Shown here: one piece after another, positions 42,838 through 46,117 of the stretch
Numbering within the stretch: position 1 is the first letter of the stretch
Layout of the letters: every line of letters begins with the position of its first letter
Source of the DNA: Parvibaculaceae bacterium PLY_AMNH_Bact1
Lineage (GTDB): Bacteria; Pseudomonadota; Alphaproteobacteria; Parvibaculales; Parvibaculaceae
DNA length: 64,000 bases
Reading direction: 5' to 3'
Assembly (NCBI GenBank): GCA_032881465.1
Contig: CP126168.1
Coordinates: 868,001-932,000 of the forward strand
The notes under the pieces: generated by a model
Told to the model about the DNA's origin: nothing
The model's input: the letters and a program-made list of their open reading frames with translations, nothing else
The model's database searches: none
Program-made: the position numbers and the translations under genes

Positions 42838-42914
42838 GCAGCTGTAGCTCAGTCGGTTAGAGCGCTTGATTGTGGATCAAGAGGTCGGTGGTTCAATTCC
42901 TCCCAGCTGTACCA
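42838..42914 (+). tRNA. tRNA-His (anticodon GTG)
   Basis: A 77-base cloverleaf including encoded CCA (42912-42914). The anticodon stem CTTGA/TCAAG encloses TTGTGGA with GTG in the middle. The acceptor stem GCAGCTG/CAGCTGT starts with a G1:U72 wobble pair; the discriminator is A73 and the base before G1 is T, so no extra G-1 is encoded. Lack of G-1 with A73 is the known exception of alphaproteobacterial tRNA-His. The T stem has one T:T mismatch (51:63). Confidence 0.95.
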
Positions 42915-42973
42915 TTTTCCCCGCATTTAATAGACTCGACACACTGTCTTCGCGTTCAGCTCCTTGATCCTGG

Positions 42974-43162
42974 CTACTGACTATCTGTGGGAGAGACCAG
43001 CCTCGGCTGGCCAGGTTCATCTACACGCACTGCGTAGTCTGAAACCTCAGACAGCAATGGTTGCTGTAATTTCACGCCATAGGCTACGACGCGATCATTG
43101 GATTTTTCATACTTCCGAAGAAGCAGGAACCACTCGCGAAGAAAGTCTTCGCGCTCAGTCAT
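42974..43162 (-). CDS. 62-residue protein translationally coupled to the LuxI-like gene
   Basis: The ATG (43160-43162) overlaps the luxI-like stop as ATGA, so ribosomes can pass directly from one to the other. The protein starts MTEREDFLREWFLLLRKYEK, an amphipathic helix, followed by NDRVVAYGVKLQQPLLSEV and a polar, proline-containing tail. No signal or membrane segment. I recognise no family. Position after a signal synthase suggests a part in signal production or control; small anti-activators are known in other LuxR/LuxI systems (TraM, QseM), but no similarity is claimed. Confidence 0.6.
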   Translation of the reverse strand: MTEREDFLREWFLLLRKYEKSNDRVVAYGVKLQQPLLSEVSDYAVRVDEPGQPRLVSPTDSQ

Positions 43163-43785
43163 ATTCCAACCTCGTCGGTGAGCACAGCGCTTTTAGCTCC
43201 GATAACACTCTGTTCCATCTCGGCTATTGTCTCAGCCATAAAGGTTAGCGCGTCTTCTTCCAAGGTTGCGGAGACCACGAAGAAGGGGGCTCCATCCACC
43301 TGAATAGCGGGCCCATGTCGTGTCGCACCGATAAGGGTGGTTTCGGCGACGCGCTTTGGTGTTAAGAAAAACATGTGTGGGCGACCACAGGCTTGCATTG
43401 CCTGCATAAACCCAAATTGAATTTTGAGCACCGCAAGCGTAGCTATCTGAGGGGGCAAGTCTTCGCATTTTCCGATGCGATGCAGTTCCACTGACCGGCT
43501 TTTGTCCGGCAGTGGGGTCTCAATGCCATGAGGCCAAACCTCTTCAACCATCGTAAATGGGCCATCTGCTGGGATCATGCGCCCGACAGCAATAGTACGT
43601 CCTTCATGCACCACTGACGCCCAAGTTGGTTTGAAAAATATCTGGTCGAATACGTCAGCTTCGCACCCGCCACAATAGTTAACATCTGGCCAGCCAGCGA
43701 ATATCTCAGCTCGAGCCCGGGAGTGGTCAAACAGCAACTCCTGCTGTTCAGCTGCAGTCTCTATGTTGATTAGATGAAGTTTCAT
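43159..43785 (-). CDS. LuxI-family autoinducer (acyl-homoserine lactone) synthase, divergent
   Basis: 208 residues from the ATG at 43785, which has AGAGGG five bases upstream; an in-frame ATG at 43800 lacks one. The invariant LuxI residues can be placed in order: R25, F29, W32, E42-x-D44-xx-D47, R69, E100 and R103 (VELHR where most have WE-x-SR). These form the SAM/acyl binding site, so the enzyme should be active, joining SAM to an acyl group. Acyl chain cannot be told. The luxR-like gene lies upstream on the same strand and a coupled small gene downstream. The region looks AT-richer than its surroundings. Confidence 0.85.
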   Translation of the reverse strand: MKLHLINIETAAEQQELLFDHSRARAEIFAGWPDVNYCGGCEADVFDQIFFKPTWASVVHEGRTIAVGRMIPADGPFTMVEEVWPHGIETPLPDKSRSVELHRIGKCEDLPPQIATLAVLKIQFGFMQAMQACGRPHMFFLTPKRVAETTLIGATRHGPAIQVDGAPFFVVSATLEEDALTFMAETIAEMEQSVIGAKSAVLTDEVGI

Positions 43786-43811
43786 TCTGCCCTCTGACAT
43801 TAGTTCGAGGA

Positions 43812-43823
43812 CAGAATGTTCTG
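43812..43823. promoter_or_regulatory. Palindrome upstream of the LuxI-like gene
   Basis: CAGAA-TG-TTCTG is a 5-bp inverted repeat with two-base spacer, 27-38 bases before the luxI-like start and just after a possible -10 (TATACA on the minus strand, near 43826-43832). A candidate lux-box-like element or a repressor site for the synthase gene. Confidence 0.35.
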
Positions 43824-43851
43824 CGTGTATAAATCTCGCTAGCTTAGAAAG

Positions 43852-44574
43852 CTAAGGTAAAACGCCCGCTTGGAGTAGAAGTCGTATTACACTTATGTCC
43901 TTGGCGACACCGAATTGTTCCCGAATTTCTTTGAAGCGTTGATTGAGTGCGCCAACCGTGCGGCCTACCATTATGCTGATTTGGGCCCGGTCATATCCTT
44001 CCCAATAAAGACGAAGGATTTTGAGGTCGTTTGCAGACAGCTTGTATCGCGCGGTGGTTTCCGCTGCCATCTCGGCCTGTGCAAAAATGCGAAAAATCTG
44101 AACCGCTGAGAAAATCTGTAGAGCGATCGCACCCTTTGCCCGCTTGTCTCGTCCGCTGACAGAGAAACCCGCTCCTCCTCCACCCGGAGCGGCAGCGATT
44201 CCGCTAATGCCGTTCGTCGCTCCACCGTCTATTGCTGCTCTGTCCATGTGCCGCTTCTGCGCATCTGTTTGTGGAATGTCATCCCAGAATTGAGGCAACA
44301 GAAACTGCGGACTGGCGGACCATGTAGGATCGATAGATGCAAGTTTGCATGAATGATATTCGTGCGCCCATTGTTCGTTGCGGCGATCTATGAAGTGGAA
44401 ATTCTCCATCGCGTATGGGGTGGGAGAAAAGGGGTCGCGTTGAAGCATTACAGCCCAGTACTGAAACCCATGCCCTTTGATGAGGTTATCAAGCGCTATC
44501 GCGCGTTCTTCAAAGACTGAGCTGGCTTCCATCTCTTCGAAGAAAGTCAACGCATTGAGTGCAAGATCGGGCAC
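43852..44574 (-). CDS. LuxR-family receptor/regulator with autoinducer-binding domain
   Basis: 240 residues from a GTG with GAGGAA upstream. The N-terminal 165 residues are an autoinducer-binding domain: W69, Y73, D82, P83 and W97 correspond to TraR/LuxR ligand residues W57, Y61, D70, P71 and W85, and NGISGIAAAPGGGGAGFSVSG is the typical beta turn. The C-terminal HTH (LSANDLKILRLYWEGYDRAQ to LLLQAGVLP) keeps the LuxR spacing but lacks the usual T-x-R-E and TV-x-x-H residues, so its DNA site may differ from a standard lux box. 66 bases from luxI; faces a small gene across a palindrome. Confidence 0.9.
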   Translation of the reverse strand: MPDLALNALTFFEEMEASSVFEERAIALDNLIKGHGFQYWAVMLQRDPFSPTPYAMENFHFIDRRNEQWAHEYHSCKLASIDPTWSASPQFLLPQFWDDIPQTDAQKRHMDRAAIDGGATNGISGIAAAPGGGGAGFSVSGRDKRAKGAIALQIFSAVQIFRIFAQAEMAAETTARYKLSANDLKILRLYWEGYDRAQISIMVGRTVGALNQRFKEIREQFGVAKDISVIRLLLQAGVLP

Positions 44575-44591
44575 GGTGTATTCCTCGTTTC

Positions 44592-44630
44592 CGATTGACG
44601 AAATCGAAGTTTCAGATTTACTATGAAACT
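44592..44630. promoter_or_regulatory. Candidate operator between luxR-like gene and the divergent 57-codon gene
   Basis: AGTTTCA (44608-44614), nine bases, TGAAACT (44624-44630) form a perfect 7-bp inverted repeat of 23 bp. A second repeat CGATT-GACGA-AATCG (44592-44606) abuts it. They lie 34-56 bases before luxR-like GTG (for the main palindrome) and 18-40 bases before the 57-codon gene, so one bound regulator could control both. Confidence 0.45.
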
Positions 44631-44647
44631 ATAGGTGAGGAACGACG

Positions 44648-44821
44648 GTGGATTCAAATATAATCAATCTTGAGCCGGGCCGGCCCGCAAAGGTGGATCT
44701 GGAACGACGGAAGCTGATGGTGACCGCGGGCCGCCTGAGTCTTGGCCAAGTTAAGCGGCTCAATGAGATTGCATCGCTTATGTGTGACGAGTTGGATCGG
44801 AAGGATCCGGAAAATTCGTAA
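44648..44821 (+). CDS. 57-residue protein divergent from the luxR-like gene
   Basis: GTG start at 44648 with GAGG eight bases upstream, 57 codons, TAA at 44819-44821. The protein starts MDSNIINLEPGRPAKVDLER and continues RKLMVTAGRLSLGQVKRLNE with IASLMCDELDR, mostly charged helix; no membrane segment. Not recognised. The final 44 bases overlap the end of the XRE gene on the other strand, so the two messages are antisense to each other at their 3' ends. It shares a palindromic intergenic region with luxR, suggesting co-control. Confidence 0.5.
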   Translation: MDSNIINLEPGRPAKVDLERRKLMVTAGRLSLGQVKRLNEIASLMCDELDRKDPENS

Positions 44822-45200
44822 GAGCACCACTCTCTTGGTCGGTTGCCAAAACAGCTTGCAGCATTTTGTATCGGCTGTTGCGGATGTGAGGGTTTTCAAT
44901 AGCCAAGAACAGCCGAACAATTTCAGCGATCTGATCTGCAACAGCGGCGGTTTCTATGAATTCGGGTGCGCTTTCTCGAGCCAGCGCAAGCGTATCGCTG
45001 TGCTTGATCCCATGTTTGGAAAACAGATCTGCGAGTTTGCTGACAAGGTCTTGTGGCAAAAACGGTCTCTTGTATCGGCTCTCATAGTGGCTATAGGTCG
45101 AAGGCGCGATTTCGAGACTTTCTGCAACCCTGCGAATTGATAGCCCGGAGCGCTTACGCAAGGTTTTAAGTCTGACGCGTATTTCAGTGCCGTCACTCAT
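44778..45200 (-). CDS. XRE-family helix-turn-helix regulator
   Basis: 140 residues from the ATG at 45200. Residues 8-60 are an HTH_3 domain (RLKTLRKRSGLSIRRVAESL, PSTYSHYESRYKRPFLP); the C-terminal part is helical (AVADQIAEIVRLFLAIEN) without a peptidase domain, so not LexA-like. No strong ribosome site is seen; an in-frame codon further upstream (45272) would add an unlikely leader. Direct and inverted repeats just upstream suggest autoregulation. It ends tail-to-tail inside the 57-codon gene. Confidence 0.8.
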   Translation of the reverse strand: MSDGTEIRVRLKTLRKRSGLSIRRVAESLEIAPSTYSHYESRYKRPFLPQDLVSKLADLFSKHGIKHSDTLALARESAPEFIETAAVADQIAEIVRLFLAIENPHIRNSRYKMLQAVLATDQESGALTNFPDPSDPTRHT

Positions 45201-45218
45201 CTGCACACTATGAGAGGA

Positions 45219-45255
45219 ATTTGCACCATTTGCACGCAAAATGCGGACAATTGTC
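45219..45255. promoter_or_regulatory. Repeats upstream of the XRE gene
   Basis: ATTTGCACC (45219-45227) and ATTTGCACG (45228-45236) are tandem 9-base repeats, followed by GACAATTGTC (45246-45255), a perfect 10-bp palindrome. All lie within 55 bases upstream of the XRE start codon. They are candidate binding sites for the XRE protein or a neighbour. Confidence 0.4.
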
Positions 45256-45320
45256 GCAAAAATTGCGTACATATAACATGATTCAACACCGCTAACGGAG
45301 CATACCCGCTTGGGAAATAC

Positions 45321-45897
45321 TCATCGTCCGAGCCGTTCACGCACAGTTCCAAGGTCAGGCAAAAGAAGTCGGCCGCGGACGAGGAGCGGCGCACTTTTGC
45401 GTTTAAGCCGTGCTGGCAGAGCAAGCGCTGCGGGTGTGACAATTAATGTTAAGAGCGTTGAAAAACCAAGGCCGAAGACAATGGCATTGGACATGGGTTT
45501 CCACGTGTAGCTGGTAGGAGACCCATAGGAAAACCAATCTTCGGCAAACGGATTGACGCTTACCTGGAGGACCATCGGCATAAGGCCCACCATGGTCGTT
45601 ATGGTGGTGAGCAGAATAGGCTGCAGCCGCTGTCCGCCTGCCTTGATGATGGCGCTCTCCACGTCACTCCCGGCCTTGATGAGTCTCTGATAGGTGTCGA
45701 TCAGCACAATATTGTTGTTCACCACAATTCCCGCCAGGGCGATGATACCTGTGCCTGTCAGGATCACGGAAAAGGGCTGTTGGGTCACCATCTTTTGGAA
45801 TGGATAGATAAGCCGACAGGCCTGCAATCAACGCCACGAATAGGATCGACAGCGTTGTTCGCGAACGTGAAAGTGCTGCGCTGACGAGCGGGTTCAT
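45321..45897 (-). pseudogene. RND efflux transporter remnant with large internal deletion
   Basis: From an ATG at 45897 the first 37 codons read MNPLVSAALSRSRTTLSILF and then FVALIAGLSAYLSIPK, the N-terminus of an RND (AcrB-type) pump. The frame then changes, and the next frame reads MVTQQPFSVILTGTGIIALA with NNNIVLIDTYQRLI and PILLTTITTMVGLMP, the last two-transmembrane region near residue 880-1000 of such pumps, to a stop at 45321. About 850 residues, including all periplasmic docking domains and the proton-relay helices, are missing. Not a functional pump. No membrane-fusion gene is recognisable upstream. Confidence 0.88.
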
Positions 45898-46117
45898 GTG
45901 CACCATCCAAATGGCGTCAGCTGGTGGGCAGGCTCCGAGCGGACGCCAAACACCCCAGGTACCGGTTAGTTGCCGGGTCGACCAAGAATTGGCAGGACGG
46001 ATAATAGTCCCGACGGTCGATATGCGACCATTCACCTAGCTCCTATAGGGAGATTAGAAGTGCAGGGCTATCGCACGTCAAGTCCAACGATGGTGCGCGG
46101 AGCCTTCAGTGCCCAGA

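Follow-up and report, generated by a model that had tools for sequence, protein, structure and literature searches.

A putative mobile-element-derived AHL cassette at a tRNA-His gene of Parvibaculaceae bacterium PLY_AMNH_Bact1 and a recurrent hairpin at the ribosome site of alphaproteobacterial luxI genes

The window, i.e. the whole stretch of 64,000 nucleotides analysed, contains a species-specific insert of ~2.4 kb (42918..45320) that carries only quorum-sensing genes and was recognised by congener comparison and GC content. Its left edge is a tRNA-His gene (42838..42914, plus strand), an integration hotspot: DNA similarity to the congeners stops at 42917, three bases beyond the tRNA-His gene, and at the right edge the C-terminus of an RND transporter gene ends in register at 45321. 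In the congener G005 (L044) the site is empty, with just a 27-bp spacer between the tRNA-His and RND genes. The GC content of the insert (50.8% vs 55.8%) is the lowest among all 2.4-kb stretches of the window. Gene set and boundaries can be read from the sequence itself, and the locus appears to be an AHL cassette derived from a mobile element; the insert retains neither an integrase or other phage gene nor an att repeat, and the kind of element is therefore unproven. An att-like repeat of the tRNA was also looked for at the right edge and not found. The RND gene (45321-46035) is broken by an internal deletion of ~2.65 kb, its counterpart in G005 being intact (L044 1720-4962, 1080 aa). An earlier, sequence-only reading of this DNA mentioned neither the insert at tRNA-His nor three features described below, namely the XRE gene, a 57-aa frame of opposite orientation and an RNA hairpin.

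Other congeners hold different DNA at the same tRNA. G001 has a large element there, which places the SNF and aminotransferase flanks ~77 kb apart (G001:C2:1857600-1936800, L047-L050); a duplication of 53 bp from the 3' end of the tRNA bounds the element, which also has a tyrosine integrase gene and apparent metal-efflux genes. In G003 (L045 2723-7342) an unrelated luxR-luxI-58aa set lies beside a convergent CI-like XRE-S24 repressor, and a second LuxR, whose gene is followed by that of an S24 protein, is 32% identical to the window LuxR over its full length; by eye, this locus also has an apparent small LuxR-type HTH-only frame. At the G004 site a 321-aa secreted-looking protein is encoded (L043 1745-2710), and a similar gene occurs in G001 (L050 2141-3097). 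The genome of the window itself has a second luxR-luxI pair, located in a prophage (G000:C1 ~1850000-1897000; L016, L071-L073). Behind this pair come a 59-aa frame, again coupled by ATGA, and an XRE gene in convergent orientation. This prophage contains terminase-like, RecT, exonuclease and integrase-like genes, some of them assigned by eye, and a separate LuxR-type HTH-like protein (L016 7771-8196).

Within the insert, luxR (43852..44574; 240 aa, GTG start), luxI (43159..43785; 208 aa) and a 62-aa frame (42974..43162) are all on the minus strand, and the open reading frames confirm the places that the sequence-only reading had given them. That reading had called luxR and luxI a divergent pair, which holds for their sequences but not for their orientation, as luxR, luxI and the 62-aa frame are co-directional. 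For luxI we take the start at 43785, as was done before, because it matches TraI and is preceded by a Shine-Dalgarno sequence; a 213-aa form would start from the ATG at 43800. LuxI matches the autoinducer synthase family PF00765 (Autoind_synth) with 19.3 bits and E = 8.7e-4, i.e. under the curated cut-off of 24, and its best NCBIfam family, TraI (E = 3e-9), is also under cut-off. The catalytic positions can nevertheless be placed, as had been claimed: R30, W37, E47, D49, D52, R74, E105 and R108 (numbering of the 213-aa form), eight catalytic/structural residues, are invariant in an alignment with seven other synthases, and VELHR is indeed found in place of WE-x-SR. We infer from the sequence that this LuxI produces AHL.

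LuxR contains an autoinducer-binding domain (PF03472, Autoind_bind; 44 bits, cut-off 23) in which the ligand residues can be placed, and its HTH is off consensus, with no GerE match in Pfam, both in line with the earlier description. A profile built from just two sequences, the window LuxR and the relative nearest to it, can be aligned with LasR across the HTH (E = 1.2e-10), so that the HTH, although degenerate in sequence, appears to be of the LuxR kind. The codon scores of luxI (0.076), luxR (0.073) and the 62-aa frame (0.078) are similar to one another; all three lie below the median of the host genes (0.143) and near the 95th percentile of spurious small frames. Among the 39 further genomes of the family none has a close homologue of luxI or of the xre gene, so that this luxI is absent from the sister strains; viral contigs searched with LuxI, LuxR and the XRE protein and phage records searched with LuxI and LuxR gave no relatives, and a scan of genome contigs gave none for LuxI and, with a LuxR alignment, a single match, the MAG Rhodobiaceae NORP32. 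On plasmids LuxI finds only synthases of 26-39% identity and LuxR finds no relatives.

The ATG of the 62-aa frame and the TGA of luxI share the sequence ATGA, i.e. the two overlap by four bases, as the sequence-only reading had stated, and a Shine-Dalgarno-like GAGG precedes the frame. Its codon score is reached by 5% of 169 spurious small frames (~95th percentile), and the frame is probably coding, although this score alone is not decisive. Its product matches no family in Pfam (none at E<=1) or NCBIfam, TraM included, and the frame is single copy, with no homologue in six congeners. The structure model is poor (pLDDT 57) and was left out of the fold search. TraM/QseM-type anti-activators occur in rhizobial systems, and a frame that adjoins luxR-luxI and is ATGA-coupled might encode a protein of this sort, either an anti-activator binding LuxR or a modulator of LuxI, as had been suggested. 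Homology to TraM/QseM is rejected, however, since there are no matches to TraM or any other family, and we consider such a role unlikely, also in view of what the small proteins encoded behind other luxI genes do.

Small frames are enriched at this position. In a non-redundant set of 60 alphaproteobacterial luxI genes (<60% mutual identity) a frame of 45-100 aa begins between -30 and +40 of the stop codon in 19 cases, compared with 33 of 275 other genes (p=4e-4). Several of the 19 appear spurious by eye; many of the remaining ones have a pattern of two helices in common and, in leave-one-out tests, are found again by profiles built from the others. The 59-aa protein of the prophage is modelled as a two-helix hairpin (pLDDT ~95 over both helices), a fold search with this model giving no significant match. 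With the 62-aa protein of the window the profile of these small frames gave no match, so that this protein is grouped with them by position, not by sequence.

What such proteins might bind is suggested by PraR, which we take to be an XRE-type regulator. Two small proteins whose genes are co-transcribed with luxI have been studied, CinS (67 aa) and MmaP (59 aa), and both bind PraR and not LuxR (PMC5977203, PMC10790750). Moreover, R. leguminosarum pSK03 (L174 2163-2366) has a 67-aa frame, annotated as hypothetical, with an ATGA overlap behind luxI, and this pair is probably cinIS. In G038 (L058) luxI is followed by a small frame that is similar to the C-terminal segment of the window XRE protein (shuffle p=0.003, one of eleven comparisons), which suggests mimicry of a dimerisation helix. 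Together, the CinS/MmaP, pSK03 and G038 cases point to an XRE protein as target rather than LuxR or LuxI. The 62-aa protein itself shows no detectable similarity to the candidate CinS of pSK03 (p=0.30). Of the eleven comparisons only two gave a resemblance for it, in both cases weak: one with the XRE protein of the prophage (p=0.003), the other with the small frame of G038 (p=0.02). We thus favour an XRE antagonist over a modulator of LuxI or LuxR, a role that we deduce from the comparison, the 62-aa sequence being without detectable relatives. Of the sequence-only reading, the part that survives is that the 62-aa frame belongs to the quorum-sensing unit, given the ATGA coupling, the matching codon usage and the independent small frames behind other luxI genes; an action on synthase or receptor is no longer preferred.

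The 62-aa frame could also be untranslated and the locus a decaying relic. Such decay would fit a frame that is single copy, without a homologue and at just the 95th percentile of spurious frames in codon score, next to an RND gene that is itself broken; yet luxI, luxR and xre are open, their catalytic and ligand residues are intact, the frame has its ATGA coupling and the GAGG, and small frames recur behind other luxI genes. We regard a relic as unlikely.

A candidate target is encoded nearby. Two genes from the 62-aa frame, upstream of and co-directional with luxR-luxI, lies a gene for an XRE-family HTH regulator (44778..45200, minus strand; 140 aa, or 164 aa from 45272), which matches PF13560 (35 bits), PF01381 (29 bits) and also phage transcriptional regulator PHROGs. 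Upstream of xre, operator-like repeats are present (45219..45274), comprising copies of ATTTGCAC, copies of CGCAAAA and an imperfect dyad. Between xre and luxR runs the counter-oriented frame of 57 aa (44648..44821, plus strand), a candidate second small protein without family match; with this frame in between, xre and luxR do not simply share an operon. The luxR/57-aa divergent promoter region contains a perfect dyad, AGTTTCA-N9-TGAAACT (44608..44630), which overlaps promoter-like sites on both strands; these sites are no commoner than in shuffles.

By analogy with XRE-LuxR phage modules, the 57-aa frame might encode the small protein that is functional, with the 62-aa frame as a minor passenger. 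The 57-aa codon score of 0.131 is reached by 1.2% of spurious frames and is better than that of the 62-aa frame, and the 57-aa frame starts 73 bp from luxR across the perfect dyad. The list of parts is the same as in Aeromonas phages, in which a small frame of opposite orientation is driven by XRE together with LuxR-AHL and inactivates a cI repressor (PMC10432266). In those modules, however, the small frame is upstream of xre, not between xre and luxR, and the 57-aa frame has no sequence relatives; its similarity to the 152-aa counter-oriented gene of G003 is not significant (p=0.21). A leading role for the 57-aa frame is accordingly about as doubtful, in our estimate, as the TraM/QseM-like one, and we keep the 62-aa protein as the preferred effector.

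The whole arrangement has several known counterparts. The xre-luxR-luxI lysogeny modules of Roseobacter prophages spread horizontally, are kept in degraded prophages and have been found only in the Roseobacter clade (PMC13345283, preprint 2026). The window locus shares with them adjacent co-directional XRE, LuxR and LuxI genes, a counter-oriented small gene and horizontal spread. It differs in that it belongs to a different alphaproteobacterial family, has the extra 62-aa gene behind luxI, carries its counter-oriented frame between xre and luxR, with a same-strand RND gene and no counter-oriented hth 5' of xre, and is a 2.4-kb insert without phage genes. The XRE-LuxR-smORF modules of Aeromonas phages likewise combine XRE, LuxR and a counter-oriented small frame, but these phages use host AHL, the module is without luxI and the gene order differs (PMC10432266). 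In cinRIS of R. leguminosarum and mmaRI-mmaP of Methylobacterium a small gene is directly behind luxI (PMC5977203, PMC4149787, PMC10790750), and pSK03 of R. leguminosarum has the same 4-bp ATGA overlap; praR is unlinked in these systems, whereas xre adjoins in the window. Finally, the Agrobacterium TraI/TraR/TraM system provides TraI, the nearest curated synthase family to the window LuxI, but identity is 33-36% over the N-terminal part only, the window has neither TraM nor transfer genes, and the traI examined (pAoF64/95) is without a hairpin at its ribosome-binding site. The locus is best described as a variant of the mobile xre/luxR/luxI modules already known, one to which a coupled gene of the CinS-like sort is added.

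The start of the window luxI is covered by a predicted RNA hairpin (43783..43818, minus strand) of 12 bp with one G-U pair (MFE -21.7 kcal/mol, z -6.4), whose 3' arm is made up of the Shine-Dalgarno sequence and the start codon. There are only about a dozen stems of this length in the window, both strands counted, and the hairpin region matches no known RNA in Rfam. P. aeruginosa lasI is likewise an AHL synthase gene whose ribosome site is covered by a hairpin, in its case a ROSE-like RNA thermometer (PMC13104619). The window hairpin, in contrast, is a near-perfect stem, predicted to stay closed from 10 to 65 C, i.e. not to melt at physiological temperatures, and on this prediction an RNA thermometer at the window luxI is rejected.

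Hairpins at this position recur. Perfect stems of 9 bp or more that end between -14 and +6 of the start codon are found in 20 of the 60 luxI genes and in 14 of 258 other genes (p=3e-8), start codons having been picked by homology and Shine-Dalgarno sequence, ignoring the hairpin. The excess persists among genes with a good Shine-Dalgarno sequence (18/52 luxI vs 9/197 controls, p=5e-8), and with stems of 8 bp or more included the frequency is 45%, compared with 11% in Markov-randomised sequence. When the threshold was varied from 8 to 12 bp, significance was weaker at 11-12 bp (p=0.002-0.02). These statistics treat luxI clusters as independent and include the window luxI, from which the hypothesis arose, as one of the 60; the control starts follow from a rule, which may have erred more often than the choice of luxI starts did. 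A universal luxI hairpin is rejected: the traI-type genes examined (L169, L175), the luxI of a rhi locus (L178) and most named plasmid luxI genes are without it, three of ten named plasmid luxI/traI genes having stems of at least 8 bp. On the sequences compared, a hairpin at the ribosome site is thus common, though not universal, at alphaproteobacterial luxI genes.

The stem sequence varies from gene to gene among luxI. In the 60 luxI genes, stems that allow G-U pairs outnumber those that allow A-C (37 vs 15, p=0.003; controls 175 vs 144), which favours an RNA structure over a DNA operator. Lux boxes are dyads as well, and with the lasI thermometer as precedent the dyad at the luxI start may be an operator or a thermometer instead of a silencer of read-through. 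The G-U preference is unexpected for a DNA site, however, and a hairpin predicted to be closed from 10 to 65 C is a poor thermometer, so that we hold this alternative to be rather unlikely.

A function in silencing is suggested by the surroundings of the hairpin. Stems are more frequent where luxI closely follows the end of a co-directional gene, in most cases luxR (17/40 vs 3/20 otherwise, p=0.03), and tandem control genes have a stem less often than tandem luxI genes (6/86, p=5e-6). The 5' arm of the luxI stems ends 18-31 nt ahead of the start codon, and transcription of Burkholderia cepI starts 28 bp upstream of the ATG (PMC3356288). A cepI-like start would exclude all or most of the 5' arm from the transcript. 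Based on the tandem bias, the position of the 5' arm and the cepI-type start, we propose that the hairpin silences luxI transcripts that arise by read-through but not those driven by LuxR. This would be comparable to the fold-back inhibition of the IS10 transposase. Extended to the whole class, luxI genes behind a co-directional luxR would be silenced by a fold-back hairpin, and AHL synthase and coupled small protein would be made only from a LuxR-dependent start inside the hairpin; this extension is tentative, and we give it clearly less than an even chance.

For the window we arrive at an AHL cassette of xre, luxR, luxI and small frame, stranded at tRNA-His, in which the 62-aa protein may antagonise XRE and the hairpin may gate read-through luxI, a scheme that we judge to be true with a probability slightly under one half. 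LuxI would make AHL, and LuxR with AHL would activate the luxI-62aa transcript. The 62-aa protein, translationally coupled to luxI, would act against a regulator of the XRE type, in the first place the one encoded next to it, much as PraR is antagonised by CinS and MmaP. Transcripts reading in from luxR would carry the 12-bp hairpin over the luxI ribosome site, and LuxI and the small protein would mainly come from the LuxR-dependent transcript that begins inside the hairpin. Coupling, hairpin and its recurrence are seen in the DNA, while we infer AHL production, the promoter start site and the target of the small protein. Parallel luxR-luxI-small-frame sets with an XRE gene in the genome's own prophage and in G003 argue for the scheme; the 57-aa frame, which splits xre from luxR, argues against a simple single operon.

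If small frame and XRE protein interact, the cassette would be a compact quorum switch that moves horizontally and occurs beyond the Roseobacter clade, and it would link the phage modules to the CinS/MmaP host systems. In the literature searched, no description of such luxI hairpins was found, and the recurrent ribosome-site hairpin is the part of our findings that is most likely new. If general, it would mean that AHL synthase genes across the whole class are gated after transcription, and it bears on how tandem luxR-luxI pairs avoid leaky self-activation. If the class-wide reading is true, the positive feedback loop would be held shut until quorum by a layer of RNA control so far unrecognised, whatever the sequence of the hairpin.
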